A stretch of DNA of 64,000 nt. Source: an uncultured Prevotellaceae bacterium (GTDB taxonomy: Bacteria > Bacteroidota > Bacteroidia > Bacteroidales > Bacteroidaceae). The notes beneath the pieces were generated by a model. It was not told the origin of the DNA. It worked only from the letters and a program-made list of their open reading frames with translations, and ran no database searches. A program made the translations under genes and the position numbers. The stretch covers positions 1 to 64,000 of the forward strand of contig CAMVIB010000005.1 in the NCBI GenBank assembly GCA_947167455.1. Reading direction: 5' to 3'. Shown piece after piece: positions 37,714-56,164 of this stretch. Positions within the stretch are counted from its first letter, which is position 1, and each line of letters begins with the position of its first letter.

Positions 37714-37774
37714 CCATTGCCCTGACAGAACACCCAGCTATCGGCAGGCCCTGCTGACACGGCGACTATTGAAA

Positions 37775-38271
37775 GATGACGCTTCCGGCGTCATTGCCAC
37801 AGACATATTATAAAAATGATTATCCGCAATCGTACCACCAAGACGCTGGAAGCGTCTCCTCTCAATAACCGGGGGTGCGCAGTACCCCCGGATAGGGACA
37901 AAAAGGGGAACATCGACCCTGAAGGGGTCGCCCATTACGCTGTTCGGGCACTCTTTCAGAGTGCTTGCCTCTATAGAGCTTGTTATCCGGGGGTGCTCGC
38001 TACGCTCGTACCCTCGGTTATTGAGCGAAGACCGCGTTGCGGTCTCTTTGGTAAGAGGGTACGAGCGTAGCGTGTACCCACGGTTGACAGACAATCGTGG
38101 AACATGCACTTAGGAAGAGTGCCACATCATTCCGAGAGGGCGACCCCTTCAGGGTCGAAGCCGATACTGGCTGACATCCGGGGGTGCTGCGCGCACCCCG
38201 GTTACCAGAGCGATGACGTTTTTCTTTGATGTGTCGAAGCGACCAGAGGTCGAGCGCTTGAAGTGTCAAGC
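37775..38271. repeat. Palindrome mosaic: at least ten short inverted repeats
   Basis: Examples: 37775-37794, 37841-37857, 37869-37891, 37914-37930, 37948-37964, 37987-38017, 38029-38045, 38141-38157, 38178-38201, 38240-38252, 38258-38271. Confidence 0.85.
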
Positions 38272-51662: not shown

Positions 51663-51776
51663 AGCCCCTAGGGGAGTTATGATACTCGCCTAGGCGAGTT
51701 ATGTAACTTCCCTAGGCGAGTTATGTAACTCCCCTAGGGGCTGTTGCCGTGTTTCCTGGGGGAGTTGTGCTTATGT
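51663..51776. repeat. Five tandem 22-bp units with CCTAGG palindromes; the block is also a large inverted repeat
   Basis: CCTAGG at 51667, 51689, 51711 and 51733 plus CCTGGG at 51755, all spaced exactly 22 bp. Ends agcccctaggggagtta / taactcccctaggggct. Confidence 0.95.
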
Positions 51777-54004: not shown

Positions 54005-56164
54005 TCAGAATATCACTGCTGCACACTGTGGCTGTATTGTCAGTGTGACGCGTCCGCGCTTGTCGGTCTTTAGTGCTGACTGCTGCGGCGTCTTGCCGTC
54101 CTTGCCGTCGTGGAGCAGGGTTGCCGTCTCGGCTTTGAAGCCGGCGAGCGATGAGAGGTCGATGTTCAGCGTCTTGGCCGTTGCCTCGGCATTCATTGCT
54201 GCGACATACCACTTCTGTCCGTGGCGTCGTGCCATGACGATGTACTTGCCCGGATAGCCGTCGATGAATCGCGTCTCGTCCCATGTCGTGGGCACCTGGC
54301 GCATGAAGTTGATTTCGAACTTAGGCTGCTCGGTGAGGTCGCGTGGTGTCAGTGCGAAGTTCTGTCCGCTGCTCTGGAAGGCAATAGCCGTTGCGAGCTC
54401 GAAGATGTCGGAGGTGCGTCGCGTGCTGCCTCCGTCGGCGTTGCGGTTGAGGCGTTTCTGAAGCACCGTGCCGCCATATTCCATCGATGCCACGGTGTTG
54501 CGCACGAAGGGGTGCAGGCAGGCATGTCGCGCCTCCATGTCGCAGAATCCCTGGCTGAAGACGAGGTTCTCTGATGCGAGCACGGCCTCTGAGCTGCAGT
54601 AGTTGGGGTACATGCGCTCCCATCCTCGTGGCAGCGTGCATCCGTGGAAGATGACTTGGATGCCGTAGTCGTTGGCATCGGAGAGGATGGCCTCGTAGAG
54701 GCGCATGGTCTCCTGCTTGTCGCCGGCGAAGAAATCCACCTTGATGCCTGCCACGCCGTGGTCGCGGAGCCAGCGCATCTCCTGTTTGCGAACGATGGGA
54801 TTGTGCATGCACTGGCGGGCGCACTGGGGTGCGTCGTTCCATCCGCCGTTGCTGTTGTACCACACCCAGGGGCGTACGCCCTTCTGCTTGCAGTAGGCGA
54901 AGAGTTTCTCCATGCCCTCGCGGCCAATGTTCTTATACCACCCTCCGTCGATGAGGCATCCCTCCCATCCGAGTTCTGCTGCGAGGTTGATGAATGCCAC
55001 CTGGTCGTCGTAGTTGATGCTGGCATCCTGCCAGATGATCCACGACCATGTGTTGCGCGAGCCCTGGTAGTCGGTGGATGGCTCGTAGAGTGGTTCTACT
55101 ACGTCCCAGGGGATGGTGGTCTCGACGATGGGTTTGAGCGAAGGTCCGAAGGTGAGGGTGCGCCAGGGGGTGAAGCCTGCAAAGTCGTCGTGGCCATTGG
55201 TTTTGCAGTTGCCCAGCCCGAGCTGTGCGCCAGTGCTGCCGAAGCCGTTGTTCTCACCCTCCATGGGGAAGGCTATGGTCATGAGGCCGTCGGGGGTGGC
55301 GTCGCTGAGGTGGCTGGCACAGTAGGCGGAGCTGACGCCGGTCTCGCTAATTAAAAGCCAGGAGGCCCCTCTCCCCGCTCCCCCCGTGGGGGGGAGGGCC
55401 GCCAAGCTGATGTCATCTTTTACACTAGAGGACAGGGAGTTCTCCCCCCCACGGGGGGAGCTAGAGAGGGGCTTTATCTTGAAGAGGCACGGGAATGTCC
55501 AGCCGTGGCCGTACTGCGAGCGAGTGGTGGCGGGCTGGTCCCAGATGTAGTTTTCTTCGTAGCTGGGCTTGGTGCGCTTCCAGCCTATCATGGGGTCGCT
55601 CTGCGGGCAGATGAAGGCTGTGGTGCCGTCGGGGAGGTCGAAACCGGAGGCTTCGCCCGTGACGACGATGGAACCGGTTTCGCCACTCTGCAAGAAGCGG
55701 TAGCGGTAGGCGACGTTGTTGTTGAAGACGCTGAACTGGACGGTCATCATCACTCCACTTTTTTGGGCTTGAGGCGTGGTGAGGACGAGGGCGAAGCTGT
55801 TCTCTTCGCTGTTAATCTGGCTCTGTTTGCCCTGGCGGAGGTGGTAGCTGTGGCGGATGGTGCCTTCATGACGGATTGCTTCTACGAGGGTGAGGTTGCG
55901 CGAGAAGTCGGCGACGTCGGTGTATACTCCGAGGGGCGAGGGGTCGATGACGGGCACGTCGAGGGTGTCGGCCGCCGCGCCGCGCTTTTTGGGCTTGACG
56001 AGCTGGCGGTAGCCGGCGGTGTAGGTGAGGCGTCCGTCGGCGAGGCACACGTTGAGGTAGGTCATGCCGTCGGGCGAGAGCACGCGATAGTCGGTCTGTG
56101 CTGACGCCGACGCTGCCGCTATGGCGGCGATGATGGTCAGTGATAGCTTTCTGATTGCTTGCAT
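54005..56164 (-). CDS. Glycoside hydrolase family 97 protein
   Basis: SPDGMTYLNVCLADGRLTYTAGYRQ, WSWIIWQDASINYDDQVAFINLAAELGWEGCLIDGGWY, GIKVDFFAGDKQETMRLYEAILSDANDYGIQVIFHGCTLPRGWERMYPN. Confidence 0.95.
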   Translation of the reverse strand: MQAIRKLSLTIIAAIAAASASAQTDYRVLSPDGMTYLNVCLADGRLTYTAGYRQLVKPKKRGAAADTLDVPVIDPSPLGVYTDVADFSRNLTLVEAIRHEGTIRHSYHLRQGKQSQINSEENSFALVLTTPQAQKSGVMMTVQFSVFNNNVAYRYRFLQSGETGSIVVTGEASGFDLPDGTTAFICPQSDPMIGWKRTKPSYEENYIWDQPATTRSQYGHGWTFPCLFKIKPLSSSPRGGENSLSSSVKDDISLAALPPTGGAGRGASWLLISETGVSSAYCASHLSDATPDGLMTIAFPMEGENNGFGSTGAQLGLGNCKTNGHDDFAGFTPWRTLTFGPSLKPIVETTIPWDVVEPLYEPSTDYQGSRNTWSWIIWQDASINYDDQVAFINLAAELGWEGCLIDGGWYKNIGREGMEKLFAYCKQKGVRPWVWYNSNGGWNDAPQCARQCMHNPIVRKQEMRWLRDHGVAGIKVDFFAGDKQETMRLYEAILSDANDYGIQVIFHGCTLPRGWERMYPNYCSSEAVLASENLVFSQGFCDMEARHACLHPFVRNTVASMEYGGTVLQKRLNRNADGGSTRRTSDIFELATAIAFQSSGQNFALTPRDLTEQPKFEINFMRQVPTTWDETRFIDGYPGKYIVMARRHGQKWYVAAMNAEATAKTLNIDLSSLAGFKAETATLLHDGKDGKTPQQSALKTDKRGRVTLTIQPQCAAVIF
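55366..55473. repeat. Palindromic GC-rich element inserted in frame in the GH97 gene
   Basis: Arms gcccctctccccgctccccccgtgggggggag (55366-55397) and ctcccccccacggggggagctagagaggggc (55443-55473) are near-perfect inverted repeats. 108 bp (36 codons), no stop in the GH97 frame. Confidence 0.93.

Follow-up and report, generated by a model that had tools for sequence, protein, structure and literature searches.

A dispersed palindromic element carried in frame within protein-coding genes of one genus of ruminant-gut Bacteroidaceae

Why should a long, near-perfect palindrome lie inside the intact reading frame of an enzyme? The question is raised by a GH97 glycoside hydrolase gene in the window, the 64,000-nucleotide stretch of DNA from an uncultured Prevotellaceae bacterium analysed here, where the frame runs across a 108-bp palindrome without meeting a stop (Table 1). 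Two 20-nt segments of the palindrome are 100% complementary and, with the outer segment, its arms reach 31–32 nt each (GCCCCTCTCTAGCTCCCCCCGTGGGGGGGAG versus GCCCCTCTCCCCGCTCCCCCCGTGGGGGGGAG), with a hairpin of its own in each arm. Folded as RNA it reaches -81.1 kcal/mol (z -7.74) and as DNA -40.8 (z -7.5), values equalled by 0 of 200 shuffles in both cases. The preliminary description had recognised the 108-bp element and its hairpin-bearing arms of about 31 bp, but its start and end (55366–55473) were each off by one base. The host ORF is GH97 over its full length (Pfam GH97_N 1.3e-37, Glyco_hydro_97 3e-57, GH97_C 4e-20), and translation may in fact begin at the following Met, codon 15, ahead of a signal-peptide-like stretch. 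The palindrome is very probably one copy of a dispersed, non-autonomous repeat confined to one genus and tolerated in frame as an extra protein loop.

Table 1. Coordinates of the palindromic element, its parts and its host gene in the window.
Feature	Position	Strand	Basis
Family A palindromic element, 108 bp, GCCCC to GGGGC, coding ...PLSSSPRGGENSLSSSVKDDISLAALPPTGGAGRGA...	55365..55472	-	Sequence, folding, covariance model
5' arm (gene sense), GCCCCTCTCTAG + hairpin CTCCCCCCGTGGGGGGGAG	55442..55472	-	Sequence
Inter-arm spacer; varies among loci, mostly by 3-nt length steps	55397..55441	-	Alignment of 34 copies and second alignment
3' arm (gene sense), hairpin CTCCCCCCCACGGGGGGAG + CGGGGAGAGGGGC	55365..55396	-	Sequence
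GH97 glycoside hydrolase gene with element, stop codon included, 733 aa	54005..56206	-	ORF, Pfam

Orthologues of the GH97 protein within the genus align through GWTFPCLF and resume at WLLISETGV. Insert-free relatives read GWTFPCLF-HEGDKG-WLLISETGV, with about 6 residues between the fixed blocks compared with 40 in the window protein, and a loop of 5–6 residues, mostly HEGDKG-like, is found in seven of them (L068, L069, L071, L072, L073, L078, L079). In the closest solved structure, 5xfm, 3 residues stand in place of the 37 in the window protein. Given these short loops, the insert is specific to the lineage and amounts to a net gain of 34 residues. The expectation that the flanking GH97 segments are nearly adjacent elsewhere was therefore sound, and no conserved peptide takes the place of the insert in insert-free relatives; the 36 codons said to have been added hold for the length of the element, which is in frame and free of stops, but not for the net gain. 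The four closest relatives (71–82% identity) carry 18–23 residues of unrelated sequence at the loop, and in one of them (L065, ASPPTPLPRERGVAALSGAAS) the insert is visibly half of a different palindrome.

The window copy scores 108.6 bits (E 8e-24) against a covariance model, and with the same model related palindromes were detected in 93 of the 121 genus genomes, so the element is not absent from related genomes; its absence there would have spoken against the preliminary description. Copy counts per genome from the model are lower bounds, and family A proper, taken as scores above about 75 bits, is found in a subset of the genus. Lower-scoring matches represent sister families with recognisable peptides of their own (SPLPAPPLGEC...ALPQRGSGEGA; PSPKERGVYT...SPLLGRGA; APSRPPRGGA...). 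Elsewhere in the order matches occur in 13 of 246 genomes, all of them weak (51 bits or less), and a DNA search found matches in 16 of 61 genomes, every one of the same genus. When GTDB genomes were scanned for an exact 19-mer, most of those matched were rumen MAGs of Bacteroidaceae/Prevotellaceae; unrelated organisms had no more than the short GC-rich hairpin in common with the element. Searches with the element gave only sub-threshold hairpin look-alikes in Rfam and zero matches in plasmid and phage collections. The family seems to spread within a single ruminant-gut genus of the Bacteroidaceae. Aligned, 34 copies give the consensus GCCCCTCTCTAACTCCCCCCGTGGGGGGGAGGACTCC..TCCTC-(spacer)-GCTCTCCCCCCCACGGGGGGAGCGGGGAGAGGGGC, with copy lengths in family A of 102–114 nt, stepping by 3 nt, and spacers of 33–84 nt. 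The window's own genome (77% complete) holds one full family A copy and about six sister-family copies, the latter in genes that include FtsX/MacB permeases, an S41 peptidase and a U32 peptidase. One region of it (L418, C9:3300–8300) contains three sister-family palindromes, one nested in another, all inside a stretch of about 1.8 kb in tandem MacB/FtsX permease genes.

Most copies of the element respect the reading frame of their hosts. In the covariance-model set, for which score and not context was the basis of choice, coding sequence flanks 58 copies on one strand; of these, 53 are in frame with no stop and 5 show a differing frame (binomial p 3e-20 against a chance expectation of at most one third), while a further 33 have at least one flank that is not clearly coding. 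To call the coding frame in 240 bp per side, a codon model was trained on sequence of the window; it assigned 126 of 145 test segments correctly. Some counted copies represent the same site in sister species and the effective n is accordingly smaller, but the bias remains too large to be explained in this way. An earlier, overlapping set gave 35 copies in frame, 3 with a differing frame and 4 with a stop. The proposal that insertions keep the reading frame thus holds for about 90% of testable copies. The usual peptide of the family is K/R-PLSNSPRGGEDSLSS...AALPPTGGAGRGA, read in frame f1, which is used in 18 of 25 family A copies and is open in 30 of 34, extragenic ones included. That f1 stays open even outside genes suggests an origin of new copies from ones resident in genes. 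The insert is presumably translated. A -81 kcal/mol hairpin in the mRNA could conceivably stall the ribosome or be bypassed, and hairpin copies do lie inside essential genes, so that the insert might never reach the protein, being cut from the RNA or skipped in the manner of byp elements. Removal or bypass would work without a length in multiples of three and without an open frame, yet 53 of 58 copies have both, and decayed copies are still in frame after loss of the hairpin; we consider this explanation most unlikely.

Host genes are varied by Pfam, conserved and in many cases essential. Housekeeping genes among them are those for asparagine synthetase (AsnB), dihydrolipoamide dehydrogenase (Lpd, in three loops), a ClpC-type ATPase, ValRS, MnmA, UvrB and FeoB; other hosts are pyruvate formate-lyase (PFL), CTP synthase, carbamoyl-phosphate synthase, aspartate/ornithine carbamoyltransferase, CbiD/CbiJ, OMP decarboxylase, GH36, a TonB receptor and others. 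Filled and empty sites at GH97, ClpC, Lpd and AsnB reveal loops that hold different palindromes across species and in several stages of decay. In ClpC an ancestral segment of 33–36 residues compares with 55–81 in relatives of G014, and the loop contains a fresh family A copy (L242), part-decayed copies (L243, L252), a member of another family (L245) or unrecognisable sequence (L251). The empty loop of AsnB is KMCPGSTIEKK; it is occupied by family A in G014 and G015, by a half palindrome (TPSPSPKGEG) in G028, by another palindrome in G035 and by short derived loops in others. At least three loops of Lpd hold different palindromes in different species, and a single Lpd, that of L150, has a different palindrome in each of three loops, with its redox CxxxxC and HxxHPT motifs kept. 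An AlphaFold2 model of this three-insert Lpd, built from a 3-sequence alignment, was rejected (mean pLDDT 37.5), and the placement of the insertion sites in probable surface loops accordingly derives from alignments. Because long palindromes assemble with difficulty and the genomes analysed are nearly all MAGs, an assembly artefact or chimeric join might be suspected. Independent assemblies from different samples nevertheless carry the same insertion between diverged flanks, as for MnmA in RUG14659 and UBA4301, copies lie deep within contigs, and artefacts would not preserve frame, which makes an artefactual origin scarcely credible.

The ends of the element and its nested copies provide a view of how it inserts. 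Seven copies are nested in older copies with a constant junction, AG|GCCCC...GGGGC|TT. In a flank logo of 37 copies the two bases before the element are A in 31 and then a purine in all 37, and the two after it are a pyrimidine in 35 and then T in 27. The element ends, ARGCCCC...GGGGCYT, form inverted repeats. A clean target-site duplication was not found at the copies. A MITE, by comparison, would have terminal inverted repeats shared with an autonomous IS and a target-site duplication. At nested sites the older copy is missing part of its middle, to a variable extent, and insertion therefore seems to replace target sequence. The preferred reading, of a dispersed repeat tolerated in frame, would then run as follows. 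An element of REPIN-like layout, with two inverted hairpin-bearing arms and a short spacer, would insert at many places, often replacing a few target bases. Genic copies would persist only if the frame were left intact by the net change, no stop were introduced and the loop tolerated 30–40 extra, mostly polar residues, and the host protein would then be made with an extra loop (PLSNSPRGGED...AALPPTGGAGRGA), probably neutral or of mild cost to the host. Later copies would enter older ones, and old copies would decay into ordinary-looking loops. As a description, the suggested family of mobile palindromes tolerated by proteins of this lineage has good support, with dispersal, nesting and filled and empty sites pointing to mobility and probably to active transposition. 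In ValRS of three species (L159, L341, L394) complementary arms surround 28 native ValRS codons in place of the usual spacer, and the arms may therefore also act singly.

Some sites are common to diverged species. AsnB of G014 matches that of its close relative G028 at about 92% along the gene. Compared with the diverged G015, the G014 element sits at the same nucleotide and is alike at 112 of 114 positions, with flanks at about 65–85%, and the spacer is found in these two genomes at this site only, among 139 genus genomes searched. Third codon positions are alike at 38 of 38 in the AsnB element versus 52–58% in its flanks, and at 45 of 46 versus 68–72% for MnmA, in a comparison restricted to pairs of equal element length because unequal pairs are misaligned on one side. 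The simplest reading of the AsnB alignment is lateral, site-specific transfer. A bolder reading, which we hold to be rather doubtful, is that the palindromes behave as homing elements, a copy crossing from one species to another and entering a given gene at an identical nucleotide. The site-specific passage would be like that of inteins and introns, with the difference that the product here is a retained extra peptide, and new protein loops would then be supplied by a steady stream of these elements. Recombination of short tracts, with no homing function involved, may also have produced the sharing in AsnB. Same-site elements that are 96–100% identical between flanks of mostly 75–90% were also noted for L174/L186 (MnmA), L344/L400/L029 (TldD) and L330/L366.

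That the AsnB and MnmA elements are more conserved between species than their flanks, third codon positions included, might also be expected if the element were kept as useful, whether as a regulatory DNA or RNA structure or as an advantageous peptide. Against this, presence is patchy among close relatives, the hosts are functionally unrelated and other common sites behave differently: at the Lpd site the spacers are unrelated (55%), and at the PFL site (L398/L406) the element evolves like its flanks, as under vertical descent. Retention for a benefit is thus improbable.

In its behaviour family A recalls the Rickettsia palindromic elements (RPEs) and similar Wolbachia elements, which are about 100–150 bp, lie in frame in unrelated genes and encode a recurrent peptide (PMC10969869, PMC3733652). 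The likeness, already drawn in the preliminary description, extends to the 108-bp palindrome (z -7.7) and to in-frame copies in unrelated genes (53/58), and it stands as an analogy of behaviour, drawn with RPEs as they have been described. Family A differs in belonging to another phylum, in gut rather than intracellular bacteria, in the GC-rich hairpin in each arm and in loci at which different species hold the same element copy. Some RPEs are reported to bear a CGTC tag at their ends (PMC3733652), which family A lacks. Intragenic GTAG/CGTC REP dimers are also described within ORFs of Opitutus terrae and R. conorii, among them the repair genes uvrA/uvrB, where they encode 20–30 aa (PMC3733652); those REPs are mostly intergenic, whereas more than half of the classified copies here are genic and the tag is absent. 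Long inverted repeats inside working protein-coding genes are further known from Nematomorpha mitochondria (PMC6649704), but their arms are native conserved protein sequence rather than an inserted, dispersed element.

In its build family A is closer to a REPIN. A REPIN is laid out as two inverted arms, and family A likewise has a pair of hairpin units, inverted relative to each other, around a variable spacer, measures about 100 nt, and is dispersed and non-autonomous. The term REPIN is also used in PMC6006769. REPINs are mostly extragenic, whereas here 53 of 91 classified copies are in frame inside genes, and neither a GTAG nor a CGTC tag stands beside the hairpin in the family A consensus GCCCCTCTCTAACTCCCCCCGTGGGGGGGAG. 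This layout, together with a CT step beside the outer stem in the ends GGGGC-YT, raises the possibility that the element is a REPIN moved by a REP-associated tyrosine transposase (RAYT) of the genus and that its in-frame location is merely what selection leaves, a reasonable contender although probably not the correct account. RAYT-like HUH/Tyr proteins occur in 37 of 61 genomes (NCBIfam NF047646, with E as low as 4e-13, yet short of the model's cut-off; PF01797 alone gives a poor picture of the transposases), with the HUH motif MPDHxH and the tyrosine in YVxDNPxR. They are commoner in element-bearing genomes (13/16 versus 8/21, Fisher p 0.018), a weak association. Some RAYT-rich genomes are without the element, and in some genomes that carry it no RAYT is seen. 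None of 30 RAYT-like loci is flanked by the family A hairpin, and the hairpins within and adjoining the RAYT genes differ from it (TGTTGCGACTGAGTCGCAACA, GCCGCTGTATCACAGCGGC). One family A hairpin lies about 1 kb from a RAYT-like locus (L307), and a mobilising transposase linked to family A was not found among the genus loci examined. RAYT-like ORFs in L284, L286, L288, L298–L301, L306 and L309 hold hairpins of their own (TGTTGCGACTGAGTCGCAACA, GCCGCTGTATCACAGCGGC, TGCCCGCAAAAATGCGGGCA), apparently where a low-complexity linker joins the HUH motif to the tyrosine motif. By the tests made, family A appears to be neither RPE nor REPIN, with an RPE-like action and a REPIN-like build.

In-frame coding palindromes had previously counted mainly as an oddity of Rickettsia and its relatives. 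The open-access literature searched holds no earlier report of them in Bacteroidota, although papers elsewhere are possible. The elements described here form a large and diverse family of gut Bacteroidota with numerous species at graded divergence, filled and empty sites, nesting and a decay series in core enzymes, which makes the role of selfish DNA as a supplier of protein segments directly testable. As many rumen proteins carry repeat-derived inserts, annotation and alignment may be disturbed. The window itself contains further inverted repeats. A 39-nt near-perfect inverted repeat (AGCCCCTAGGGGAGTTA...) lies at 51663–51742 in the gap preceding a TonB-type receptor gene, and its ends begin AGCCCCT, as those of family A do. 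Several others (CCGGGGGTGC..., GGGTACGAGCGTAGCG..., GGGGTCGCCC) cluster in intergenic sequence at 37767–38200 as a separate REP-like array.
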